Part shown: positions 45,808-59,076 of the stretch, piece after piece
How the letters are laid out: each line of letters starts with the position of its first letter
Numbering within the stretch: the first letter of the stretch is position 1
NCBI RefSeq assembly: GCF_024453815.1
Contig: NZ_CP072934.1
Span: 372,001 to 436,000, forward strand
Length of the DNA stretch: 64,000 nt
Reading direction: 5' to 3'
Source of the DNA: Corynebacterium pseudogenitalium
Lineage (GTDB): Bacteria; Actinomycetota; Actinomycetes; Mycobacteriales; Mycobacteriaceae
Program-made: the position numbers and the translations under genes
Notes under the pieces: generated by a model
Seen by the model: the letters and a program-made list of their open reading frames with translations, nothing else
What the model was told of the DNA's origin: nothing
The model's database searches: none

Positions 45808-46119
45808 CTATTCGGCGTCGGCGACAACAACGTCGACGAAATCGACATCGGTGGCGCGCAGGGTAGCGGTGCGTACGTCGTCGGCGACGGAGTGAATGTC
45901 CCGTTCGCTCGAAACGTCGTAAATAAAGTTGACTTCAAGGCCGCGGAGGTTGGGGTCTGAGGATCGCGTCGCGGGTTTGAGCCCTTCGATCCGCTCACCG
46001 GGTAGCAGGAGGGCAACTTCACCGAAGAACCCGCTGTGCATACCCGCAACGCCAGGGACAGCCAAAATGGCGTCCCGGGCGGCTTCGGCCACCTCGCGGC
46101 TAACGGAGGTGTACGCCAT
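45808..46119 (-). CDS. Asp23/Gls24-related small protein
   Basis: 103 residues with no membrane segment: REVAEAARDAILAVPGVAGMHSGFFGEVALLLPGERIEGLK, then IHSVADDVRTATLRATDVDFVDVVVADAE. The AILAVPGVAGM opening and the DVDFVDVVV close match the two halves of an Asp23 domain. Lies 57 bases upstream of the DUF2273-like gene. Confidence 0.7.
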   Translation of the reverse strand: MAYTSVSREVAEAARDAILAVPGVAGMHSGFFGEVALLLPGERIEGLKPATRSSDPNLRGLEVNFIYDVSSERDIHSVADDVRTATLRATDVDFVDVVVADAE

Positions 46120-46121
46120 AA

Positions 46122-46616
46122 CTACTGAGCCAGCGCCTGGTTAGCGTTGTAAGCGGCCTCGTTGGACTCCTCGTTGTCCTGCTCCGGCAGGTGGACGTCG
46201 TGAACAGTGACGTCGACGCGGTCAACGATAAGGCCGGTCATGCGGGTAACAGCAACAGTGATGTTCTCGCGGATGGCGTTTGCGAGCTCGTGGATGGCGA
46301 CGCCGTACTCCGCAATAATTGCAACAGCGACGGAAGCGTGGCCGTCCTCGACAACGACATCGACGCCCTGCTGAACATTGGTGGAGGAGGTCAGCGACTC
46401 GCGAACAGCGCCCCACATGCGTGCAGCGCCACCGCCCAGGTTGTAAACTCCGGAAACTTCGCGGGCGGCGATGCCGGCGATCTTGCCGACGACGTTGTCG
46501 TCGATCATCGTGGTGCCGTGCTCAGTCTCAAGGTTGGAGTTGCGGGTGCGAACCTGCTCTGTCTCCTTTGCCTCGGTGGTGGCAGGAGTGTTCTCGGTTG
46601 CATTGTGGTCGGCCAT
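46122..46616 (-). CDS. Asp23/Gls24 family envelope stress response protein
   Basis: 164 residues: a polar Thr/Glu-rich N-terminus (1-35), then a full Asp23 domain (DDNVVGKIAGIAAREVSGVYNLGGG, VVEDGHASVAVAIIAEYGVAIHELANAIRENI, MTGLIVDRVDVTVHDVHLP). GAAGGGATTTTCC precedes the ATG. It is the promoter-proximal gene of the six-gene cluster. Confidence 0.88.
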   Translation of the reverse strand: MADHNATENTPATTEAKETEQVRTRNSNLETEHGTTMIDDNVVGKIAGIAAREVSGVYNLGGGAARMWGAVRESLTSSTNVQQGVDVVVEDGHASVAVAIIAEYGVAIHELANAIRENITVAVTRMTGLIVDRVDVTVHDVHLPEQDNEESNEAAYNANQALAQ

Positions 46617-46919
46617 GGAAAATCCCTTCGTCTATATATTGGGTAAAGAAAAGTACGACGGACAGACGCCCGTGTAAACACCCAGGGTACACAGCAACCA
46701 GCTAGCTTGCCTGAATCGATGCAAAAATTTCCGAATGGATATCAGTCTGCAACCAAACTGAAATGTTCGGAGAAGGGGTTGCACTTCTTGCAAGAACGTG
46801 TTTTAATACTCGGGTTGCCTCGACATGGCGGCCGCAAGGTTGTGATGGTGGGGTAAACATGACACCTTCCAAAGAAGGTTTTTATCTAGGTTAACTAGGT
46901 GAGAAACCGGAGAAGGGAC
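46617..46919. promoter_or_regulatory. Divergent region between the Asp23 cluster and the S10 leader
   Basis: 303 bases without a recognised gene. On the plus strand, TTGCAC (46779-46784) and TAATAC (46804-46809) with a 19-base spacer is a possible promoter. A small hairpin ACCTTC-CAAA-GAAGGT (46864-46879) followed by TTTTAT could be an early attenuator. Minus-strand promoter elements for the Asp23 cluster were not clear. Confidence 0.45.
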
Positions 46920-47015
46920 ATGGCAAATAAACAGCGGCAGTACGCAAGGGTCACGCACCCTTCCGAGTCTGACACCCCGATGCACGTGTGCACCGAGGCG
47001 GAAGCACTGAAGTAA
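46920..47015 (+). CDS. Possible 31-residue small protein or leader peptide upstream of rpsJ
   Basis: The ATG at 46920 follows GGAGAAGGGAC, a near-ideal ribosome binding site, and opens a 31-codon frame to TAA at 47013-47015. The product is polar, begins [11 protein letters not shown] and ends [10 protein letters not shown], with no hydrophobic segment. It sits in the long leader of the S10 operon, 167 bases before rpsJ. No homologue comes to mind. It may be a regulatory leader ORF or a real microprotein; coding status rests on the ribosome binding site alone. Confidence 0.45.
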
Positions 47016-47182
47016 GCGCGCAGTTTATTGTCGCGTTACTCACCTTCCGGAAGTGTCAAACAGTCAATGAAAACGACACTGGCGTTGAGCCATGGGCCCA
47101 GCCCGGACAACGTTATAGAGAAACTAGAAGCTACAACCCCACCGCTTCGTTCAGAATGTGGGGATGCGAGGAAGAGGTAAGC
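47016..47182 (+). promoter_or_regulatory. rpsJ leader
   Basis: 167 bases before rpsJ. TTATAGA near 47113 and TAGAAG near 47125 are AT-rich enough for -10 elements, but no well-spaced -35 was convincing. An S10-operon promoter or L4-type leader structure could lie here. Confidence 0.3.
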
Positions 47183-47488
47183 GTGGCGGGACAGAAGATC
47201 CGCATCAGGCTGAAGGCCTACGACCACGAAGCGATCGACGCATCTGCGAAGAAGATCGTTGAGACGGTCACCCGCACGGGTGCCCGCGTCGTTGGACCGG
47301 TGCCGTTGCCCACAGAGAAGAACGTGTACGCCGTTATTCGTTCTCCCCACAAGTACAAGGACTCTCGCGAGCACTTTGAGATGCGCACGCACAAGCGTCT
47401 CATCGACATTCTCGATCCGACGCCGAAGACGGTTGACGCGCTCATGCGTATCGACCTTCCTGCAAGCGTTGACGTGAACATCCAGTAA
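47183..47488 (+). CDS. rpsJ: 30S ribosomal protein S10 (uS10)
   Basis: 101 residues from the GTG at 47183, behind GAAGAGGTAA; the upstream open frame is leader. [28 protein letters not shown], then [10 protein letters not shown] and [21 protein letters not shown] are diagnostic. First gene of the S10 operon; in some bacteria its product is also NusE. Confidence 0.98.
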
Positions 47489-47531
47489 TCACTAGAGATC
47501 CGACAACCTGTAAGTAGTGGAGAACTAATAC

Positions 47532-48188
47532 ATGTCTGATAACCAGATCAAGGGCATTCTGGGCACCAAGCTCGGCATGACCCAGATCTTCGACGACGAG
47601 AACCGTGTTATCCCGGTTACCGTCGTTGAGGCTGGGCCGTGCGTGGTCACCCAGATCCGTACACCAGAGACTGATGGCTACTCCGCCATCCAGATTGCTT
47701 ACGGCGACATCGATCCCCGTAAGACGAACAAGCCAGAGGCTGGCCACTTCAAGAAGGCTGGCGTCACCCCACGTCGCTACGTAGCTGAAATCCGCATGGA
47801 TGACACCTCTGCGTACGAACTCGGCCAAGAGATCACCGTCAATCTGTTTGACGGCGACGTCTTCGTCGACGTTGCTGGCACCACCAAGGGCCACGGCTTC
47901 GCTGGCGCAATGAAGCGTCACGGCTTCGCGGGCCAGGGTGCAGCACACGGTAACCAGGCTGCTCACCGTCGCGTTGGTGGCATTGGTGGCGCGTCTACGC
48001 CGGGTCGCGTGTTCAAGGGCAAGCGCATGGCTGGCCGTATGGGCGGTAACCGCGTTACTACCCAGAACCTGAAGATTCAACGCATCGACGGCGACAACAA
48101 CCTCCTCCTCATCAAGGGTGCTATCCCTGGTGCGAAGGGTTCTGTTGTTACCGTCAAGACCGCAGTGAAGGGCGGTGCTCACGCATGA
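47532..48188 (+). CDS. rplC: 50S ribosomal protein L3 (uL3)
   Basis: 218 residues: [29 protein letters not shown] at the start, central loop [23 protein letters not shown] that reaches the peptidyl transferase centre, and [12 protein letters not shown]. Its stop overlaps the rplD start (ATGA). Confidence 0.98.
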
Positions 48189-48841
48189 CGAACCTGACGT
48201 TGAACGTCCACACCGCAGACGGAAAGACCAACGGTTCCGTTGAGCTTCCGGCAGAACTTTTTGACCGTGAAGCTTCCATTCCCCTGATGCACCAGGTTGT
48301 GACAGCTCAGCTGGCAGCCGCTCGTCAGGGCACTCACGCCACCAAGACCCGCGGCATGGTCCGCGGTGGTGGTAAGAAGCCATTCCGCCAGAAGGGCACC
48401 GGTCGCGCTCGTCAGGGCTCGATCCGCGCGCCACACTTCACCGGCGGTGGCATTGTCCACGGTCCGCAGCCGCGTTCTTACGCGCAGCGCACCCCAAAGA
48501 AGATGATCAAGGCTGCACTTGCTGGTGCACTCACTGATCGTGTTCGCAACGAGCGCATCCACCTCATTGAGGAGCTTGTTCCGGGCCAGAAGCCTTCGAC
48601 CAAGTCTGCTCGTGCGTTCATTGAGCGTCTGACTGACCGTAAGTCGGTGCTGCTCGTGATCGGCCGTGAGGATGTTAACTCCCGTCTGTCCGCAAGGAAC
48701 CTGCCGGGCGTCACCATTCTTGAGCCGGCGCAGCTGAACACCTACGACGTGCTGAACGCCGATGACGTTGTGTTCTCGGTTGAGGCGCTGCACACCTTCA
48801 TCAACCGTGGCAAGGCTGAAGCTGCGGAGGAGGAGAAGTAA
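48185..48841 (+). CDS. rplD: 50S ribosomal protein L4 (uL4)
   Basis: 218 residues with the long tunnel loop containing [26 protein letters not shown] and a C-terminal KFLxxL-like globular region ending in acidic residues. Autoregulator of the S10 operon in enterobacteria; whether so here is unknown. rplW begins at the next base after its stop. Confidence 0.98.
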
Positions 48842-49147
48842 ATGGCTAAGATCGTGAATTCCCGCGACATCATCATCGCGCCGGTCCTCTCTGAGAAGAC
48901 CTACGCGCTGATGGAGCAGAACACCTACACGTTTTTTGTAGCGAAGTCTGCTAACAAGACCCAGATCAAGATTGCCGTGGAAGAGATTTTCGGCGTCGAC
49001 GTCGCTTCGGTGAACACCGTGAACCGTGAGGGCAAGCGCAAGCGTTCCCGCACTGGTTTCGGTAAGCGCAAGGACACCAAGCGCGCCTACGTTACTCTCC
49101 GCGAGGGCAGCGATCCCATCGACATCTTCGGCGGCGCAGCCGTCTAA
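48842..49147 (+). CDS. rplW: 50S ribosomal protein L23 (uL23)
   Basis: 101 residues: [36 protein letters not shown] and the loop [23 protein letters not shown]. Lies at the tunnel exit and docks trigger factor and SRP. Confidence 0.98.
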
Positions 49148-49172
49148 GTGACTCGATAGAAAAGGACAAAAT

Positions 49173-50012
49173 ATGGCTATTCGTAAGTACAAGCCGACAA
49201 CCCCGGGTCGCCGTGCCAGCTCTGTTTCGGAGTTCGAGGAGCTTACCCGCTCCACTCCGGAAAAGTCGCTGCTGCGCCCGCTCCCGAAGAAGGGTGGCCG
49301 CAACACGCACGGCCACATCACCACTCGTCACCGTGGTGGCGGCCACAAGCGTCGCTACCGCGTGATTGACTTCCGTCGTTCGGACAAAGACGGCGTGCTG
49401 GCAAAGGTTGCTCACATCGAGTACGACCCGAACCGCACCGCTAACATTGCTTTGCTCCACTACTACGACGGTGAGAAGCGCTACATCATCGCTCCGAAGG
49501 GCCTGAAGCAGGGTGCCGTCGTTGAGGCTGGTCCTAACGCCGACATCAAGGTTGGTAACAACCTCCCACTTCGTAACATCCCGACCGGTACGACGATCCA
49601 CGCTGTTGAGCTCAAGCCTGGTGCAGGTGCCAAGCTTGCTCGTTCCGCAGGCGCTTCTATTCAGCTGCTCGGTAAGGAAGGTTCCTACGCAGTGCTGCGT
49701 ATGCCGTCCTCCGAAATTCGCCGCGTGGACATCCGCTGCCGCGCAACCGTTGGTGAGGTCGGCAACGCTGACCAGATCAACATCCGCTGGGGCAAGGCTG
49801 GCCGTATGCGCTGGAAGGGCTGGCGCCCAACGGTCCGCGGTGTTGTCATGAACCCTGTGGATCACCCACACGGTGGTGGTGAAGGTAAGACTTCCGGTGG
49901 TCGTCACCCAGTGTCCCCATGGGGCAAGAAGGAAGTTCGCACCCGCAACCCAAACCGTTACTCAAACAACATGATCGTGCGACGCCGTCGCTCGAAGAAC
50001 AAGAAGCGTTAA
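49173..50012 (+). CDS. rplB: 50S ribosomal protein L2 (uL2)
   Basis: 279 residues of normal length: [34 protein letters not shown], and C-terminal [25 protein letters not shown], which contacts the peptidyl transferase region. Confidence 0.98.
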
Positions 50013-50028
50013 GAGGAGGTAGTAAGAC

Positions 50029-50304
50029 ATGCCACGTAGCCTAAAGAAAGGCCCGTTCGTCGATGAGCACCTCCTCAACAAGGTGGACGCTCAGAACGAT
50101 GCAGGCACCAAGCAGGTAATCAAGACCTGGTCTCGCCGTTCGACCATTCTCCCAGATTTCATCGGACACACTTTCGCCGTCCACGACGGCCGCAAGCACG
50201 TCCCGGTGTTTGTCGACGAGTCCATGGTCGGCCACAAGCTCGGCGAGTTTGCACCAACCAAGACCTTTAAGGGTCACGTCAAGGAACAGAAGGGACGTCG
50301 ATAA
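50029..50304 (+). CDS. rpsS: 30S ribosomal protein S19 (uS19)
   Basis: 91 residues: [42 protein letters not shown] and [13 protein letters not shown]. Preceded by AAGAGGAGGTAG. Confidence 0.98.
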
Positions 50305-50307
50305 GCA

Positions 50308-50667
50308 ATGGCTGACACCATCACCACTGCATCCGCGACGGCCAAGTTCGTTCGTGTTTCTCCGATGAAGGCGCGCCGCGTGCTCGCCCTCGTCCGTGGG
50401 AAGTCCGTCTCCGAGGCTCTCGCAGTCCTGAAGTACGCACCACAGGGTGCTGCGAAGGACGTCGCCAAGGTTGTTGCATCTGCAGCCGCCAACGCTGAAA
50501 ACAACTTCGGTTTGGACCCGCGTACGCTGGTCGTCTCCGAGTGCTGGGCAAACGAAGGTCCGACCATGCGTCGCTTCCAGCCACGCGCTCAGGGTCGCGC
50601 ATTCCAGATCCGGAAGCGCACCTCGCACATCACCGTAGTTGTCGAGTCCAAGGAAGGGGCGAAGTAA
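50308..50667 (+). CDS. rplV: 50S ribosomal protein L22 (uL22)
   Basis: 119 residues: [27 protein letters not shown] and C-terminal [26 protein letters not shown], the hairpin lining the exit tunnel. No macrolide-type insertion visible. Its stop overlaps the rpsC start (TAATG). Confidence 0.98.
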
Positions 50668-51410
50668 TGGGCCAGAAGATTCACCCACACGGCCTGCGCC
50701 TGGGTATCACGTCCGACTGGAAGTCCCACTGGTACGCCGACAAGAACTACGCTGATTACGTCGCAGAAGACATCAAGATCCGCGAGTTCCTGTCCAAGGG
50801 CCTCGAGCGCGCCGGTATCTCCGACGTCGTCATCGAGCGCACCCGTGACCGCGTCCGCGTCGACATTCACACTGCCCGCCCGGGCATCGTGATTGGCCGT
50901 CGTGGCGCTGAGGCTGACCGCATCCGCCGTGAGCTCGAGAAGCTCACCGGCAAGATGGTTGCGCTGAACATCCTCGAGGTCAAGAACGTCGACGCCGACG
51001 CGACGCTCGTTGCTCAGTCCATCGCTGAACAGCTGGTCAACCGCGTTGCGTTCCGTCGTGCGATGCGCAAGGCAATCCAGTCCGCTATGCGTAACCCACA
51101 GGTCAAGGGCATCAAGGTCATGACCTCGGGTCGTCTCGGCGGCGCTGAAATGTCCCGCGTCGAGCGCTACCACGAAGGCCGTGTGCCACTGCACACCCTT
51201 CGTGCTGAGATCGACTACGGCATCGCAGAAGCACACACGACCTTCGGCGTCATCGGCGTCAAGGTTTGGATCTACAAGGGCGACGTCGTCGGTGGCGTGC
51301 GCGAGTCCGAGCTCAACGCTCCGTCGAACGAGCGTCGTGGCCGTGGCGATCGCCGCCCACGCCGTGGTGGCCAGCGCCGCCAGCGTGCAGAGCAGAAGCA
51401 GGAGGGCTAA
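50667..51410 (+). CDS. rpsC: 30S ribosomal protein S3 (uS3)
   Basis: 247 residues from the ATG at 50667: [22 protein letters not shown] domain with [20 protein letters not shown], and a basic Arg-rich tail typical of actinobacteria. Longer upstream frames lie within rplV. Confidence 0.98.
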
Positions 51411-51413
51411 TCA

Positions 51414-51830
51414 ATGCTTATTCCTAAGCGTGTGAAGTACCGCCGCCAGCACCGCCCGACTCGTTCTGGCGTGTCCAAGGGTGGCAACACGATCAACTTC
51501 GGTGACTACGCTCTGCAGGCTCTCGAGCCGGCGTACATCACCAACCGTCAGATTGAGGCGGCTCGTATTGCGATCAACCGCCACGTCAAGCGTGGTGGCA
51601 AGGTCTGGATCAACATCTTCCCGGACCGTCCGTTGACGCAGAAGCCGCTCGGTGTTCGTATGGGCTCCGGTAAGGGCCCTGTCGAGAAGTGGGTCGCTAA
51701 CGTAAAGCCGGGACGTATTCTCTTTGAGATGTCCTACCCGAACGACGCAACCGCTATCGAGGCACTGCGCCGCGCAGGCGCGAAGCTGCCTTGCAAGGTT
51801 CGCATCATCAAGAAGGAGGACCAGTTCTAA
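51414..51830 (+). CDS. rplP: 50S ribosomal protein L16 (uL16)
   Basis: 138 residues: [52 protein letters not shown]. Near the A-site tRNA elbow. Stop overlaps the rpmC start (TAATG). Confidence 0.98.
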
Positions 51831-52060
51831 TGGCAAACGGTACCCCCGCATCCGAGTTCCGCGAGCTCAACGACGAAGAGCTGCGCGCTCGTCTGTCCGA
51901 GGCAAAGGAAGAGCTGTTTAACCTGCGCTTCCAGCTTGCTACCGGCCAGCTGACCAACAACCGCCGCATCTCCACCGTGAAGCGCGACATCGCACGTATC
52001 TACACCGTGCTGCGCGAGCGCGAGCTCGGCCTGTCCGTTGTTCCGGGAGCTGAGGCTTAA
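51830..52060 (+). CDS. rpmC: 50S ribosomal protein L29 (uL29)
   Basis: 76 residues: helical hairpin with [35 protein letters not shown] and [16 protein letters not shown]. The start at 51830 overlaps the rplP stop. Confidence 0.97.
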
Positions 52061-52062
52061 TC

Positions 52063-52347
52063 ATGAGTGAGGCAAACGTGAACGAACAGACCAACGAGAA
52101 GCGTGTTCAGAAGAACCGCCGCGGCTACGTCGTCTCCGACAAGATGGACAAGACCATCGTTGTCGAGGTCGAGGACCGCAAGTCCCACGCCCTGTACGGC
52201 AAGATCGTCCGTACCACCAAGCGCGTGAAGGCACACGACGAGGAGAACACCGCCGGTGTTGGCGACCTCGTCCGCATCCAGGAGACGCGTCCGCTGTCCA
52301 AGGACAAGCACTTCCGTCTCGTGGAGATCATTGAGAAGGCACGCTAA
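52063..52347 (+). CDS. rpsQ: 30S ribosomal protein S17 (uS17)
   Basis: 94 residues: [43 protein letters not shown] and [20 protein letters not shown]. Last gene of the S10 operon, which stops at the next terminator instead of running into rplN. Confidence 0.97.
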
Positions 52348-52384
52348 ACCCATCCGGTAGAGGCGTCCGACTCAAGGACAAGAG

Positions 52385-52426
52385 AGCACCACCCCCAAGT
52401 TTCGCGACGAGGGGGTGGTGCTTTTT
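52385..52426 (+). terminator. Terminator of the S10 operon
   Basis: A perfect 12-bp stem AGCACCACCCCC/GGGGGTGGTGCT (52385-52396 with 52411-52422) is followed by TTTT. Confidence 0.94.
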
Positions 52427-52479
52427 GCATTTCGGTACACTTTCTGGTGTTCGATATCACCAATTTGAAGGAGTCCATG

Positions 52480-52845
52480 ATGGGTACTGGTAAGTTTTGT
52501 GTCACCGTTGCACACGCGAAGGATAATGAGGACCTGGCGACGCTCGGCTTCGTCGTCGCGAACGCTGCTGTTGGTTCCGCGCAGGACACGATGGTGTTCC
52601 TGTCCTCCGAGGGCGCTCGCCTCGCTGTGAAGGGCTACGCGGACGACATCCATGAGGAGGGCTTCGCTCCAATCAAGGAGTTGATTGAGAACTTCGTTGC
52701 CGCAGAGGGCAAGCTGTACGTGTGCGCGCCTTGTGCCAAGAAGCGTGGCTTCGGGGAAGAGGATCTTATCGACGGCGCCACCATCGTCGGCGGCGCAAAG
52801 CTGGTTGAGTTCCTGGCGGACGGCACCCCAAGCGTTTCCTACTAG
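52480..52845 (+). CDS. DsrE-family protein
   Basis: 121 residues. The ATG at 52480 has GAAGGAG six bases upstream; the ATG at 52477 is too close to it. The DsrE/F-like fold is suggested by VTVAHAKDNEDLATLGFVVANAAVGSAQDTMVFLSSEGARLAVKGYADDI in consecutive segments. C82-A-P-C85 in LYVCAPCAKKRGF replaces the single catalytic Cys region of sulfur-relay DsrE proteins. It starts a tight three-gene unit with two TusA-like domains, so sulfur transfer is the natural inference. The seven bases after its stop hold no promoter. Confidence 0.8.
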   Translation: MGTGKFCVTVAHAKDNEDLATLGFVVANAAVGSAQDTMVFLSSEGARLAVKGYADDIHEEGFAPIKELIENFVAAEGKLYVCAPCAKKRGFGEEDLIDGATIVGGAKLVEFLADGTPSVSY

Positions 52846-52852
52846 GGCAGCG

Positions 52853-54445
52853 ATGGCTCAGCAAGAGAATGTGCACCCGTACGCTCCAGACGCCAGCTTT
52901 GATGGCGGCGATCTGGACTGCGGTAACGGGTTGCTGCTGTTGATTCGAAAGAACATCGATCCGCTCGAGTCTGGTCAGCTGCTAGAGATTATCTCCTACG
53001 ACTCCACAGTCAAGGTGGATCTGCCTTCCTGGTGTAACTTGACTGGCAATGACTTGGTCAACGTGGTTGAGGAGCCAGAGCACAAGCGGTGGTGCTTCCT
53101 TGTGTCGAAGGGGGCGTTCACGAAGCCCGTGGAGGTTGCTGATATCCCGGCTGCTCCCGAGGCTGTGCGCCCGAAAAAGAAGAAGGGGCCGCGCAAGCGC
53201 CCGCAGATGCCGGTGACGCAGGAGGTCGTGGAGCCGACGATCGCCAAGGAACTGCCTGAGCCAGCTCCCGCGCCGGAGATTCCGGCCGGATCTGTGCTGA
53301 CGATGGGCTCTTGGCCGCGGTCTCCGTGGTTGTTGGATGCGCTGCACCGCCACCTCGAAGAGCGGATGGATGAGGGCACGTTCCAGGCCACAGCCGACGA
53401 CGCAGTGCGCCTTGTGCTTGCGGCGCAGGAGCGGGCCGGAGTGGACGTCGTCACGGATGGTGAAATGCGACGCGACAACTACTCGAGCTTCGTCGCGGGG
53501 CGTCTGCAGAACTGCCAGCTCATCCCGATTACGGACCTGCTGCCGTACGTGGATGACCCGGAGGAGTTCGAGCGCGAGCTTCGCGCGTTGGACGTCCCGG
53601 CGGGCGAGGTGCGCCACCCGGCGGTCTTTGGCCCGCTTGGTCGCGATAAGCCGCTGGTTGCGCACGAGGTTGAGTTTGTGCAGCAGCTCACCGACCGCCC
53701 GGTGAAGGTGTGCCTGCCAGGGCCGTATCTGCTCACACGCACGATGTGGATGGAGTGTGTCTCCGACCGCGCGTACGAGAACCGCGAGGAGATGTCGAAG
53801 GATATCGTCCGCGTGCTACGCGAGGAGCTCCACGAATTGCTGGCGAAGGGAACGTCGCTGGTGCAGATCGATGAGCCGGTGCTTACTGAAGTCGTGTACG
53901 GGCAGGCAGGCGGGGGCGGCCGCACGTTTATGTGTGGCGCGCTCGACGGCCTGGAGGGCACGGTGGATGAGGAGCTGGAGTTCGCGAAGTCCCTGCTCGA
54001 CGAGCTCACAGAAGGGCTGCCGAAGGACAGGTTGGCGCTGCACGTGTGCCGCGGCAACTGGACCACGGACGAGTCGGCGGCGCTGACGGGCGATTACGCT
54101 CCGTTTGTTGAGCTTTTCGCCTCGCTGAACGTGGGTATGTTGTCCATGGAGTTGGCGACGCCTCGCGCCGGCGATATCCGAGCCCTCGAGGGAATCCGCG
54201 ACGACCAGCGCATCTGCGTTGGCGTGCTGAACCAAAAACTCCAGGAGCTGGAGCCGGTCGAAGCAGTGGAGGAGCGCATCGAGCGCGCCCTGGACACGTT
54301 CGGAGCTGACCGGGTGGTCTTCTCCACGGACTGCGGTTTTGCAACGTTTGCGGATAACCCGATCGTGGCCGCGAACTTGGCTGAGCAGCAACTCGCGCTC
54401 ATTGTGCAGGCCCGCGACAATGTGATGGCGCGCCGCAATGCATGA
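52853..54445 (+). CDS. TusA-like domain fused to a MetE-type zinc methyltransferase domain
   Basis: 530 residues from the ATG at 52853. Residues about 18-90 are TusA-like: DLDCGNGLLLLIRKNI with C23 at the sulfur-carrier position, then DLPSWCNLTGNDLV matching the TusA C-terminus. The normal CPxP is CGNG here. A basic, Pro-rich linker (about 95-145, KKKKGPRKRP at 108-117) leads to a MetE C-terminal/UROD-like barrel (148-530). All expected zinc ligands are present: H397 and C399 (LHVC), E433 and C494 (STDCGF). It lacks MetE's N-terminal half, so it resembles core-MetE proteins. A sulfur-carrier-coupled methyl transfer is my inference. Coupled by an 8-base overlap to the next gene. Confidence 0.82.
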   Translation: MAQQENVHPYAPDASFDGGDLDCGNGLLLLIRKNIDPLESGQLLEIISYDSTVKVDLPSWCNLTGNDLVNVVEEPEHKRWCFLVSKGAFTKPVEVADIPAAPEAVRPKKKKGPRKRPQMPVTQEVVEPTIAKELPEPAPAPEIPAGSVLTMGSWPRSPWLLDALHRHLEERMDEGTFQATADDAVRLVLAAQERAGVDVVTDGEMRRDNYSSFVAGRLQNCQLIPITDLLPYVDDPEEFERELRALDVPAGEVRHPAVFGPLGRDKPLVAHEVEFVQQLTDRPVKVCLPGPYLLTRTMWMECVSDRAYENREEMSKDIVRVLREELHELLAKGTSLVQIDEPVLTEVVYGQAGGGGRTFMCGALDGLEGTVDEELEFAKSLLDELTEGLPKDRLALHVCRGNWTTDESAALTGDYAPFVELFASLNVGMLSMELATPRAGDIRALEGIRDDQRICVGVLNQKLQELEPVEAVEERIERALDTFGADRVVFSTDCGFATFADNPIVAANLAEQQLALIVQARDNVMARRNA

Positions 54446-54662
54446 GGATCACTACTGGGACGCCCAGGACATCGCGTGCGGTGATGTCCTGGTGCGCCTC
54501 TTCCTCTTGTTCCGCGACCAGATCAAGGATGGGGAAGTGCTGCACTTGCGGTCCACGAACGAGGCGATCGATATCGATATTCGTGCCTGGTGCGGCCTGA
54601 CCGGCAACACGTTGCTGCGCGCGGATCACCCGGAGTTTTATATCCGTAAAACTTCTGATTGA
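54438..54662 (+). CDS. Free-standing TusA-like sulfurtransferase
   Basis: 74 residues, overlapping the preceding gene by eight bases. DIACGDVLVRLFLLFRDQIKDGEVLHLRS and AWCGLTGNTLL align closely with the N-terminal domain of the fusion protein, with C14 at the carrier site and CGDV instead of CPxP. The second Cys (C52) is also shared. Probably a partner of, or donor to, the fused domain. Confidence 0.78.
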   Translation: MHEDHYWDAQDIACGDVLVRLFLLFRDQIKDGEVLHLRSTNEAIDIDIRAWCGLTGNTLLRADHPEFYIRKTSD

Positions 54663-54689
54663 TGTGAAACTTCGGCTATCCTTAGCGCT

Positions 54690-56291
54690 GTGAATAAAGG
54701 ACTGCGCCGAACGAACCGTGTCGTTTCCCGAGCCCTCGCAACCGTTGGGCTCGGGCTTTGTATTCTTGCCTCTACCGCCGCCTGCGGGTTTGGGGGCGGT
54801 CAGCCGGTCATGGCAGCTGATACGACAGAGCTCGCTCCTCGTGATGTTGCTGCCAAAGTGCCGGTCACCGCGACGGTGGAGGCTGCCACGGTGACCGCGT
54901 TGACGACGCACCTGACCGGCCCGGTCACAGCCCTGAACGTGAAGGTGGGACAGCGTGTCGAGGCGGGCCAGGTCGTCGCGGTCCTGGATACGTCGGGGGT
55001 CCAGCGTGAGATTGATGCGCAGCGCGCGCAGCAGATTTCGGCGGATGTCGCGGCGCAGAATCAGCTTGAGCAGGCCCAGCAGGCTTACCGGCAGTCGAGC
55101 GACGCGATGCAGCGTGGCCTGAACCCGCAGGTGACGCAGGCGGAGGCGGCGCTTCGCCAGGCTGATGGCCAGTTGCAGGAGGCTACCGCAGTTTTCGAGC
55201 AGCGAAAGAAAGCAGTCGCTGCGGGCCTGGACAGCACGCTGCTTACGCAGGCGCAGGGCGTGGACTCGGCGCGTCGTGACGCGCTGACGGCGGCCCTGGA
55301 GTCTGTGCGTGGCAACCACGGCATCTTCCAATCCGGGATGGCGCAAGACGATGCTGTGCAGCCGTTGCTGAGCAAACTGGAGGCCGACGAACGCTACCGC
55401 GGCGCGAAGCACAACCTTTCTGCGGCGCAAAAAGCGTACGACGCTGCCCTCAACGACACCGACGCGGATCTTGCGGCGAAGCAGCGCGCAGTTGCCCAGG
55501 CATTTGATGCGAAGGCGGAGGCAGCGGTCGGGCTCGAGGTAGCAAAGCTTGCGGCCCAGCAGCAGCTCGACTCCCAGGCGGCAGCGGTGCAGCAGGCACA
55601 GCGTGGGGTGCAGGCGGCGCAGGCCGCGGCGGGCCAGTCAATCGCGCAGCTTGAGGTCGACGTGGCGTCGGGCCAGGTGCGAGCCCCGATCGCGGGTGTG
55701 GTCGCGGAGGTCGCGGTGAAGCAGGGGCAGACGCCGACGGGCTATCTGCTCTCTGTGGCGGACCCGAACCGGCTGGTGCTGCGCGCGAGCGTCAAGGAGC
55801 TGGACTCGGCGAAGATGAAGCCGGGCGACGCCGTCTCGTTCACCACGCCTGGCACCGGCGCGAAGAAGTTTAAGGGCCGTGTGCTGGATGTTTCATCGGT
55901 TGCGGAAACGCAGCCCGCGGCGGATGGGGCGTCGGCGCAGGCGGCGCGCCCGGAGTTCCCCGTGGAGATCGAGGTTCTGGGTGATACCGAGGGCCTCAAG
56001 ATCGGCGGCACGGCCAAGGCGCAGATCACCACGGAGTCCGCGAAGGACGCGCTCGCTGTGCCGCGGGAGGCCGTCGTCGATGAGAACGGTAGCTACTCGG
56101 TGTACGCGCTGCGCCCGAAGGATGACGGGGACAAGTTCGAGGTAGTGAAGACGCCTGTCAAGGTTGGGCTGGTGTCGGATTCGGATGTGGTCGTAGAGGG
56201 CGTCGAGAAGGGGACGCGGGTGCTGAACAAGCCTGCCGAGTATCGCGAACGCGTCGGTGCCACCGTGACCTTGGTTGAGGAGCAGGAGTGA
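54690..56291 (+). CDS. Efflux transporter periplasmic adaptor lipoprotein (HlyD/MacA-like)
   Basis: 533 residues from GTG. Lipoprotein signal with lipobox STAAC (C32). Split biotinyl-lipoyl domain ([24 protein letters not shown] and GQVRAPIAGVVAEVAVKQGQTP) around a long Gln/Ala-rich coiled coil (about 105-325), then beta-barrel and C-terminal regions. TATCCT ends seven bases before the GTG and no ribosome binding site is seen, so it may be leaderless. Overlaps the permease gene by four bases (GTGA). Confidence 0.88.
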   Translation: MNKGLRRTNRVVSRALATVGLGLCILASTAACGFGGGQPVMAADTTELAPRDVAAKVPVTATVEAATVTALTTHLTGPVTALNVKVGQRVEAGQVVAVLDTSGVQREIDAQRAQQISADVAAQNQLEQAQQAYRQSSDAMQRGLNPQVTQAEAALRQADGQLQEATAVFEQRKKAVAAGLDSTLLTQAQGVDSARRDALTAALESVRGNHGIFQSGMAQDDAVQPLLSKLEADERYRGAKHNLSAAQKAYDAALNDTDADLAAKQRAVAQAFDAKAEAAVGLEVAKLAAQQQLDSQAAAVQQAQRGVQAAQAAAGQSIAQLEVDVASGQVRAPIAGVVAEVAVKQGQTPTGYLLSVADPNRLVLRASVKELDSAKMKPGDAVSFTTPGTGAKKFKGRVLDVSSVAETQPAADGASAQAARPEFPVEIEVLGDTEGLKIGGTAKAQITTESAKDALAVPREAVVDENGSYSVYALRPKDDGDKFEVVKTPVKVGLVSDSDVVVEGVEKGTRVLNKPAEYRERVGATVTLVEEQE

Positions 56292-57550
56292 ACCCGCGCG
56301 AATCTGTCAGACTCGCTACGGTGAGCCTGCGGGCGAACAAGATGCGCTCGGCGCTGACGCTGCTCGGGGTGATCATTGGCATCGCCTCGGTGATTGCGAT
56401 TATGACGCTGGGTAAGGCGATGCAGAAGCAGACGCTGGACAGCCTGGAGCAGTTCGGCATTCACGACGTCCACCTCGAAGTCAAGCCCCGCCAGGAGGAT
56501 GACAGCGAGGCCGCCCGCTACATGTTCCAAGAAATTGACGACGCCTCGAAGCTCACCCCCGACATGATCGAGGACCTGCGCGCCGAACTCGGGACGCGGG
56601 CGAAGGGTATCGCGTTTGAGTTGGATAGCTCGACAGCTCAGGCGACACGCGGGCTGGCGCACGGCACCACGATGGTGAGTTTTGTCAACGCTGACCAGCT
56701 GGAGATGCAGAACCTGCCGCTGACCGCCGGGCGATTTCTGACCCAAGACGACATTGAGGCGAACCGCGCCGTGGCGGTGGTCTCGCCGGAGGTTGTGGAG
56801 CAGCTGTTCAATAACGACCCTGATTCGGCGATCGGGCAGGAAGTCGAGCTGGACATCGGCGGGCAGTACGCTTCGGTGCAGGTGGTCGGTGCGTACGGGC
56901 ACTTTGAGAAGCAGGGAGTGCTGGTCGGGGACTTTTCGCAGTCGATGATGGCGGTGCCGTACACGGTGCAGCCGGACATGATGCGCACGCCGGTGCCTGG
57001 CGTGGACAACGTGAGCGTGCGCGCCGCGGACGGCGCCGACACCGATCAAGTGGCCAAGGACGTCCAGGCGTGGGCGGACCGCGCCTATGAGGACGACCCC
57101 GATTACAAGGGGAAAGTGGCCGACATGAAGCGTGACATCGATCAGCTCAACCAGACGTTGACCATGATGAGCGTGGTGGTCTCCGCAATCGGCGGGATCT
57201 CGCTACTCGTCGGCGGTATCGGCGTGATGAACATCATGTTGATTACCGTGACGGAGCGCACCCGTGAGATCGGTGTGCGCATGGCGCTGGGCGCGACGCG
57301 TCGGATGATCCGCACGCAGTTTGTCACCGAGGCGATGATCGTCTGCCTCATCGGCGGGCTCTTCGGCGTGGTCGTGGGCGCGGGCTTCGGCATGCTGGGC
57401 GCGCTGCTGCTGAACGCCTTCGTGTTCCCCCCGATCTCGGCAGTGCTACTCTCACTGGTATTCGCGCTGCTGATTGGCCTGTTCTTCGGCTACTACCCGG
57501 CAAACCGCGCATCGAGAATGAACCCGATCGAAGCCCTGCGCTACGAATAG
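56288..57550 (+). CDS. MacB-type ABC transporter permease (FtsX family)
   Basis: 420 residues: one N-terminal helix ([22 protein letters not shown]), a periplasmic MacB core domain (about 45-270), then three helices (about 285-310, 340-370, 375-400) with the FtsX motif [18 protein letters not shown] and a C-terminal [17 protein letters not shown]. No nucleotide-binding domain is fused, and no ATPase gene lies next to it, although adaptor-ATPase-permease is the usual order. The ATPase must be encoded elsewhere, if it exists. Confidence 0.9.
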
Positions 57551-57573
57551 CAACAACGTTTGGAGTGACACAT

Positions 57574-59076
57574 ATGGCAGCCACCGTGCTGACCACGGAA
57601 AACACGCGCCGGTACAAGCCCGAGCCATCAGTGGCGACAGCGCTGAAGACACCGCGCATCCTGACGAAGGAGGTCCTCGCCGGGCTGGTTGTGGCGCTGG
57701 CGCTGATCCCAGAGGCGATCAGCTTCTCCATCATCGCAGGAGTGGACCCGAAGATCGGGCTGTACTCCTCCTTCATCATGGCGATGGTGATCGCGATTAC
57801 GGGTGGGCGCCCCGCCATGATCGCGGCCGCCACCGGTGCGGTGGCGCTGGTAATCGCGCCACTGGTGAGGGATTACGGCTACGACTACATGGTGGCGGCC
57901 ATCATGCTCGCCGGGGTGTTCCAGATTGTGTTGGCGGTAGCTGGCGTCGCAACGCTGATGCGGTTCTTGCCGCGCAGCGTGATGATCGGCTTCGTCAACG
58001 CGCTGGCGATTCTCATCTTTGTGGCGCAGCTGCCCGAAATTATCGGCATTCACTGGGCGGTGTACCCGCTGCTGGCGCTGGCCATCGTGATCATGGTGGT
58101 GATGCCGAAGTTTACGCAGGCGGTTCCGGCGCCGCTCATTGCGATTCTGGTGGTCACGCTCATCGCGGTCGCTACGAAGGCACCCGTGCCGACGGTCGGA
58201 GACCGCGGCGAGCTGCCGAGCAGCCTGCCCGAATTCTTCATCCCACACGTGCCGCTGACCTGGGAGACGCTTCGGATCATCGCACCGTACTCGCTCGGCG
58301 TGGCGCTCGTCGGCCTGATGGAGTCGCTGATGACCGCGAAGCTGATCGATGAAGTCACGGACACGCATTCCAACAAGACCCGCGAGAGCTGGGGGCAGGG
58401 CGTCGCGAACATTGTCACCGGCCTGTTCGGCGGGATGGGTGGCTGCGCCATGATCGGCCAGTCCATGATCAACGTGAAGGTCTCCGGGGCTCGCACCCGT
58501 ATTTCCACCTTCCTGGCGGGCGCGTTCCTGCTCATCCTGATGCTCGCGTTCGGCGAGTACGTCGCCATGATCCCGATGGCTGCGCTGGTTGCCGTGATGG
58601 TGATGGTGTCGGTGGGCACGTTCGACTGGCACTCGGTGATGCCGAGCACGCTGCGCAAGCTGCCGGCTTCGGAAACCGTCACGATGCTGATCACGGTTGC
58701 GGTGGTGCTGGCGACGAACAACCTGGCTATCGGCGTCGTGGTTGGCGTGCTTGTGGCGTCCGTAATCTTTGTGCGAAACGTCGCCCACCTGGTGGAAGTG
58801 ACCCGCGAAGTTGTCGACGGCGTGGCCCACTACGTGGTGTCCGGCCAGCTGCTGTTTGCCTCCTCCAACGACCTGACCACTCTGTTCATGTACTCGGAGG
58901 ACCCCGACGAAGTGGTCGTGGACCTGCACCGCGCGCACGTGTGGGACGCGTCGACGGTCGCGGCGCTCGACAGCATTGAACAAAAATACGAAGAGCGCGG
59001 CAAGCACGTGCGCTTCATCGGCATGAACCCGAGTACCACGGAGTTTCACAGCAAGCTCACGGGCTCTCTGAGATAG
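57574..59076 (+). CDS. SulP family anion transporter
   Basis: 500 residues. I prefer the ATG at 57574, with GGAG eight bases upstream, over the in-frame GTG at 57565. About ten or more hydrophobic spans with family signatures [30 protein letters not shown] and [31 protein letters not shown]-terminal STAS domain (about 415-495, [24 protein letters not shown]). Carries sulfate, bicarbonate or another anion; substrate unknown. Lies 23 bases after the permease gene. Confidence 0.9.

Follow-up and report, generated by a model that had tools for sequence, protein, structure and literature searches.

What a sulfur-relay protein, a methyltransferase and a second carrier-like protein might do together is the question raised by three tightly packed genes at positions 52480 to 54662 of a 64,000-nucleotide stretch of the Corynebacterium pseudogenitalium genome (RefSeq assembly GCF_024453815.1, contig NZ_CP072934.1, positions 372,001 to 436,000; hereafter, the window); the genome is assembled as a single contig of 2.39 Mb. 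The original prediction had read the region as genes for a DsrE-like protein, a TusA-like domain fused to a MetE-type barrel, and a second TusA-like protein, and the open reading frames (ORFs) agree with both of its end points. The fusion protein is tentatively interpreted, at somewhat less than an even chance, as a further family of methionine synthase without the folate domain (core methionine synthase) that depends on a TusA/DsrE relay. The genes and domains were as follows.

52480 to 52845, + strand: DsrE-family protein, 121 residues, with a CxPC motif (C82, C85); Pfam DsrE, E 7e-15, above cut-off.
52853 to 54445, + strand: fusion protein, 530 residues, composed by Pfam profiles of a TusA-like N-terminal domain, a linker and a MetE-type barrel with a predicted zinc site.
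52886 to 53113, + strand: TusA-like domain of the fusion (approximately residues 12-87), with Cys23 in CGNG and Cys61 in SWCNLTGN; Pfam TusA, 32.7 bits.
53288 to 54427, + strand: MetE-type (Meth_synt_2) barrel of the fusion (approximately residues 146-525).
54438 to 54662, + strand: small TusA-like protein, 74 residues, with Cys14 in CGDV and Cys52; assigned by a family profile against Escherichia coli TusA.

The DsrE gene and the fusion gene are separated by 7 nucleotides, and the small TusA gene overlaps the end of the fusion gene by 8 nucleotides.

Homology, residue conservation and gene linkage of the trio were established by sequence comparison. The Pfam TusA profile matched residues 28-86 of the fusion (E 7e-8; cut-off 28.6 bits) and Meth_synt_2 matched the barrel (E 9e-23, 81.5 bits; cut-off 21), each also matching 23 of 23 aligned fusion relatives with E <= 0.001, and residues 11-87 matched E. 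coli TusA (1dcj) with E 0.003. The N-terminal folate domain of MetE was not found in the fusion with Pfam, Meth_synt_1 scoring 18.7 bits, below its cut-off of 27, inside the same barrel. Residues were counted in the 120 best of 6278 database matches, which are the closest relatives and were taken with no peptide-based selection. The full set of zinc ligands named in the original prediction (H397, C399, E433 and C494) was invariant in 120/120 homologues, as were S153, E204 and D340, placed as homocysteine-binding residues by alignment with 3rpd and 1t7l, and the barrel cysteines C302 and C361, both of which are specific to this family. At C23 a Cys was present in 119/119 homologues (one gap row), at C61 in 115 (Ser in 4, Ala in 1) and at C221 in 112. 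The regions of C302 and C361 contained no matching Cys in the 3rpd alignment or in the 402-residue core MetE-like protein that the same genome also encodes; in the latter comparison the MetE row was shortened by the ORF chosen. According to Price et al. 2021 (PMC7857596), zinc is liganded by the His, Cys, Glu and Cys residues, MetE and MesD use the Ser, Glu and Asp residues to hold homocysteine by its carboxyl and amino groups, and both sets served as the criteria applied to MesA-MesD; by its residues the barrel could be counted as a core methionine synthase in this sense. Because the amino-acid pocket S153, E204 and D340 is invariant, a free homocysteine-like acceptor is favoured; homocysteine itself as acceptor, the binding of zinc and a physical partnership of the three proteins are inferred.

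The small TusA-like protein alone scored below the Pfam TusA cut-off of 28.6 bits (24.0 bits, E 3.6e-5), and a profile of 13 of its relatives matched E. coli TusA (1dcj) over nearly the full length (E 9e-13), with its two cysteines aligned to both cysteines of E. coli TusA, so that TusA homology holds for both segments. The CPxP motif of TusA is replaced by CGNG, CGDV or CGEL in the TusA-like parts, CGNG in the fusion and CGDV in the small protein of the window having been read correctly beforehand. A carrier Cys and a second shared Cys had also been proposed; the former is borne out by C23 and by the small-TusA carrier Cys, kept in 68/68 loci having that gene, whereas C61 is not strictly invariant. 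The trio parts resemble TusA sulfur carriers, a group that also includes YedF and YeeD, in sequence and in both cysteines, and differ from them in that CPxP is gone and a methyltransferase is joined to one copy. The DsrE protein matched 3mc3 over nearly its whole length (E 2e-11), sharing with this DsrE-family structure the first Cys of CxPC and differing from it in the second, which 3mc3 lacks. The Cys, Pro and Cys of this motif were kept in 77/77 loci with DsrE; DsrEFH and TusBCD belong to the same family. The DsrE- and TusA-like parts might also act only by thiol-state control, sensing persulfide or oxidation and gating a methionine synthase while no sulfur is passed. The lost CPxP, the replacement of C61 in 5/120 homologues and the redox-like CxPC would suit such a switch, but the retention of C23 (119/119) and of the small-TusA Cys (68/68) speaks against it, as does the number of separate thiol parts, a switch hardly seeming to need three. 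This explanation is regarded as improbable.

Linkage of the genes, for which the original prediction had called for a survey, was examined by scanning one genome per species with the exact peptides TRTMWME and RTFMCGAL and keeping the best 80 of 211 loci; counts over these 80 favour close relatives, and the peptide choice biases C361. In their residue alignment D340 fell in a gap in one row, as did the zinc ligands and C361 in two. A frameshift or a sequencing error may have split the fusion into two ORFs in L024 and L067, contigs of metagenome-assembled genomes (MAGs), for each of which one of the two ORFs was used, and both were left outside the tree (78 of 80 rows). In these named genomes DsrE was encoded near 77/80 fusions and a separate small TusA near 68/80, the gene order being TusA-DsrE-fusion in 59, DsrE-fusion in 9, DsrE-fusion-TusA in 6, fusion alone in 3 and other in 3. 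The 12 loci lacking the small TusA comprised 8 Binatia-type loci (one labelled Desulfurellaceae) and the proteobacterial MAG contigs L058, L062, L063 and L075, the TusA match of L062 being cut by the contig start. Fusion loci occurred in at least six phyla, and in a maximum-likelihood tree the 78 fusions clustered by phylum, the 7 groups requiring 6 label changes, the minimum possible. Pairwise identities of the fusion correlated with those of DsrE (r 0.72, 77 loci) and of the small TusA (r 0.68, 68 loci), mean pairwise identity being 0.70 for the N-terminal domain, 0.69 for DsrE, 0.68 for the barrel and 0.47 for the small TusA, so that only the last is less conserved than the barrel; the length of the fusion linker was 28-65 residues. 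A second, weakly DsrE-like protein was encoded in 13/81 loci (the 80 and one from Paracoccus). Within Corynebacterium the fusion was rare (8/151 genomes), and the closest fusions, 97-99% identical, were those of Corynebacterium sp. NML98-0116, NML130628 and NML140438. With a TusA match found, the genes conserved together, and C23 and the zinc ligands kept (C61 alone being lost, in 5/120), the architecture originally described is retained. Some database entries name the fusion 5-methyltetrahydropteroyltriglutamate--homocysteine methyltransferase, as would fit an ordinary MetE paralogue in a chance gene cluster; this is highly improbable, there being no MetE N-terminal domain and both linkage and residues being kept across phyla, and an accidental cluster was ruled out by the conserved linkage itself.

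None of the NCBIfam methionine-synthase models reached its cut-off on the fusion, the best being PRK04326 (154.7 of 406 bits) and PRK09121 (103.4 of 392). These models stand for Mes families, one of them for MesD, and MesD was rejected as the identity of the fusion, the profile lying far below its cut-off. The fusion shares the catalytic barrel and zinc ligands with MetE, which consists of two face-to-face barrels of about 750 residues, but it lacks the N-terminal folate barrel and scored 69.4 of 930 bits with TIGR01371. The closest parallel is with MesA-MesD as described by Price et al. (PMC7857596), which likewise have a Meth_synt_2 barrel without the MetE folate domain, the His-Cys-Glu-Cys zinc set and the Ser/Glu/Asp residues, and of which MesD also requires a partner protein, MesX. 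Unlike these proteins, which have at most 386 residues (PMC7857596), the 530-residue fusion has an N-terminal TusA-like domain, near-constant DsrE and TusA neighbours and two extra invariant cysteines, and neither TusA nor DsrE is named in the main text of that paper. The statement in the original prediction that no pathway with this architecture had been described agrees with the listed titles and abstract openings of the open-access papers searched, none of which describes a TusA-MetE fusion. No paper on methionine in Yaniella was found among them either.

In the mechanism proposed for a relay-dependent core methionine synthase, homocysteine, with its thiol on zinc and held by S153, E204 and D340, would be methylated by the fusion barrel. 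A fixed set of thiol proteins, namely the fused TusA domain, the separate TusA-like protein and the DsrE protein with CxPC, would deliver to the barrel sulfane sulfur, a methylthio group or an activated methyl group, and C302 and C361 would participate; the function of the relay could lie in carrying the methyl donor, in providing sulfane sulfur or in gating the enzyme. Three points are guesses: transfer of a thiol-bound group from the relay to the barrel, involvement of C302 and C361, and a donor other than 5-methyl-tetrahydrofolate in at least some hosts. Methylfolate is likewise a possible methyl donor. The more specific version, in which TusA, loaded via DsrE, presents a thiol-bound group (sulfane sulfur or methylthio) to a methionine- or methanethiol-forming zinc barrel and the relay includes C302 and C361, is considered distinctly unlikely.

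A role in methionine formation was further examined from the methionine genes of the trio genomes. In 8/8 Binatia-type loci metY-metX-metW are divergent from the module, and 7 of these loci also have a nucleoside-phosphorylase-family gene. In six Micrococcaceae (Enteractinococcus helveticum, E. coprophilus, Yaniella halotolerans, two Yaniella MAGs and one Micrococcaceae MAG) the fusion was the sole Meth_synt_2 protein in 6/6, so that a separate MesD is absent, and no PF02574 protein was found in 6/6. In 6/6, too, a MetX-like gene and a PF01053 (MetY/MetB family) gene are at most about 120 bases apart, and in Y. halotolerans profiles named this pair MetX and O-acetylhomoserine sulfhydrylase. 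Neither a MetE N-terminal domain nor a MetH domain was found in 5/5 searched of the six, the lack in G175, G177 and G179 being taken from absence among the matches listed for the same 120 Micrococcaceae genomes. Among these 120, a MetE N-terminal domain was above cut-off in 66 and a MetH domain occurred in 8, all within those 66; only 4 of the 54 genomes without both carried the trio, and two of the 54 had a sub-threshold match in a 355-residue frame. As a hint for a methionine role of the fusion this sole-synthase pattern is suggestive only.

Several observations weigh against a relay-dependent methionine synthase. The MetE reaction needs no sulfur relay. MetE (above cut-off) and MetH were likewise missing from 50/116 trio-less Micrococcaceae, the comparison of 4/4 with 50/116 giving p ~0.04 by hand with related rows, and therefore the sole-synthase argument is weak; since MesD is the apparent sole synthase in Paenarthrobacter aurescens according to Price et al. 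(PMC7857596), many of these 50 may use MesD. All matches from the genome search for MetX were below the cut-off of the model, as was that of C. glutamicum. A MetH domain was present in 19/25 trio genomes tested (11/11 Pseudomonadota, 4/4 Binatia-type and 3/3 Planctomycetota), MetE was present in several, and the genome of the window itself encodes a full MetE with adjoining MetF; MesD, too, often co-occurs with MetH or MetE in the same account (PMC7857596). PF02219 (MetF) matched strongly in 16 of the 25 trio genomes, only weakly in 6 and not at all in 3 (C. atypicum, Helcobacillus and Dermabacter), and the six Micrococcaceae encode a divergent, weakly matching MTHFR-like protein, by which a folate donor is possible. 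Corynebacterium atypicum (G112) speaks for a relay-dependent synthase in that, beside the trio, it has MetX but no MetF, PF02574 or full-length MetE; against it, this genome encodes another core MetE-like protein and its MetY frame is broken in two.

The divergent MTHFR-like frame, of 287 residues, was located at L101:644-1507 (- strand), L102:646-1509 (+) and L104:398-1261 (-), with a weak PF02219 match in L101; it adjoins a gene for an SsuA/NMT1-like binding protein in Yaniella, and similar frames were present in two Enteractinococcus. The second core MetE-like protein of the window genome, with 402 residues and without a TusA domain, is encoded at G000:C1:1516512-1517720 (L108:1513-2721, - strand), and Meth_synt_2 frames of 408-437 residues were found in other trio Corynebacterium and Dermabacteraceae genomes.

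The same methionine genes bear on persulfide methylation, in which DsrE and TusA would bring sulfane sulfur for the barrel to methylate, the methyl persulfide being reduced to methanethiol, which MetY would then combine with O-acetylhomoserine to form methionine directly. The MetX/MetY genes adjoining 8 Binatia-type loci, the MetX/MetY-family pairs in the six Micrococcaceae, the almost invariable presence of relay proteins beside the barrel (DsrE in 77/80), the two extra barrel cysteines C302 and C361, and a Paracoccus operon (below) flanked by a SufS-family cysteine desulfurase and ending in a thioredoxin reductase gene would all accord with it. The invariant S153, E204 and D340, however, are suited to a free amino acid and would be needless with a protein-bound persulfide, and CPxP of TusA is CGxx here; we regard this route as rather unlikely. 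The original prediction had suggested that a methyl group passes to or from a sulfur held on a protein, an idea to which persulfide methylation gives definite form. That prediction is supported in its homologies, its zinc barrel and its co-conservation; the extra invariant cysteines make a protein-bound sulfur attractive, but the pocket favours a free amino-acid thiol as acceptor.

In many Pseudomonadota the relay-dependent synthase may in addition be fed by an operon-borne importer. In the 81 loci, a PhnD/PhnE/PhnC-type importer was encoded in 12, in all 12 between DsrE and the fusion, and a two-gene cassette in 11 (with one gene only in L069), in 9 between DsrE and the fusion; Xanthobacter tagetidis had both. 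Neither cassette was found in 57/81 loci, including all Actinomycetota; among the 57, L058 and L075 have permease and ATPase genes adjoining the fusion, and in two Yaniella loci permease and ATPase genes about 40% identical lie about 8 kb away. On the tree the sister loci L052 and L062 carry different cassettes, L071 falls within an importer clade, and L065, L078 and L085 stand among the two-gene types; because importer and two-gene types thus interleave, we read the cassettes as functionally related and repeatedly exchanged. The binding protein of the importer matched the hypophosphite-binding protein HtxB over nearly the whole chain (256-267 bits) and shares W52 with it, whereas F158 is replaced by His and N128 by Ser in 12/12. 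As described for HtxB (PMC5700983), F158 and N128 close the third-oxygen site, and the His and Ser pocket residues resemble the STS-H set of phosphite binders. Since the residues closing that site are replaced, the ligand predicted from the binding-protein sequence is probably a small anion with three oxygens, and hypophosphite was rejected as the ligand.

The two-gene cassette, which often stands in the place of the importer in trio operons, encodes two proteins, one membrane-like, with Cys pairs and about 170-180 residues, the other secreted-looking, with about 505-520 residues. It was located at L071:7826-9895 and L116:7853-9937, with both genes also in L052, L059, L065, L073, L079, L080, L083, L084 and L086; the members tested matched no Pfam or NCBIfam family above cut-off, and their matches to PDB chains did not go below E 0.03.

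On two Paracoccus plasmids, pFER4 of P. ferrooxidans and pBEN of P. versutus, the operon consists of TusA, DsrE, the two cassette genes, the fusion, selA and trxB, with a SufS-family cysteine desulfurase gene divergent upstream. SelA was genuine by profile (565 bits; cut-off 268), and selB lies about 12 kb away. In P. pantotrophus a 91% identical selA was found without the trio, trxB or the desulfurase within 12 kb on each side, and the sequence retrieved for the 80 loci contained no SelA-like ORF. Three matches, all in Paracoccus, came from the plasmid collection, two of them with no gene listed under the match. Selenium as a general theme was dropped, selA standing beside the trio in the two Paracoccus plasmids only, and the selA, trxB and desulfurase genes are taken as a hint, specific to this lineage, of chalcogen chemistry. 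An imported small S, Se or P anion (sulfite, thiosulfate, selenite or a methylated oxyanion) might itself undergo thiol or methyl transfer, the product then not being methionine. The HtxB-like importer inside the operon with its altered pocket, the interleaving of the two cassette types on the tree, and selA and trxB downstream of the fusion in Paracoccus would fit such a use, but 57/81 loci have neither cassette and the selA linkage is confined to one lineage, P. pantotrophus having selA without the trio. Anion use is accordingly judged unlikely.

The methyl source of folate-independent methionine synthases, including the role of MesX of MesD, was an open question in 2021 (Price et al., PMC7857596). 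A relay-dependent core synthase would provide another case for this question, one found in aerobes that can be cultured and whose partners are defined and cysteines invariant, and the trio may be an undescribed route to methionine; some seeming methionine auxotrophs may carry the trio instead. If TusA presents the reacting group, one-carbon and sulfur assimilation would be coupled through a sulfur carrier, independently of methylfolate and B12, across several phyla; unless the relay carries the reacting group, the fusion would be a variant of core MetE.

Upstream of the trio two further elements were recorded.

52385 to 52426, + strand: terminator-like hairpin with a 12-bp outer stem followed by TTTT; fold -28 kcal/mol, z -4.6, with 0/200 shuffles equally stable.
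52468 to 52473, + strand: AAGGAG, possible ribosome-binding site of the DsrE gene, identified by reading the sequence.

The hairpin follows a ribosomal-protein operon (genes named by eye), and because it and its TTTT set the trio apart from these genes, the three genes probably form a separate transcription unit. The hairpin was absent from the list of a simple consensus terminator scan, and a promoter scan gave no promoter-like site in the gap 5′ of the DsrE gene. Riboswitch control was dropped, since no riboswitch reached the Rfam threshold in 21 loci and window positions 46000-58000, a tmRNA being the sole element at threshold.

On plasmid pNOCA01 of Nocardioides sp. JS614, a run of genes for DUF4242, TusA-family and DsrE proteins was observed at L119:4080-5366, in a 10-kb stretch without an annotated MetE-type gene. 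The small TusA-like protein (54438-54662) and the TusA-like part of the fusion (52853-54445) gave weak matches (E 0.003 and 0.05) to the NCBIfam model of the Rv1681 radical SAM family, and the binding protein of the operon importer gave a weak match (E 0.008) to the Rv1680 NCBIfam model, which perhaps points to a related theme of a TusA-like protein with a binding protein.

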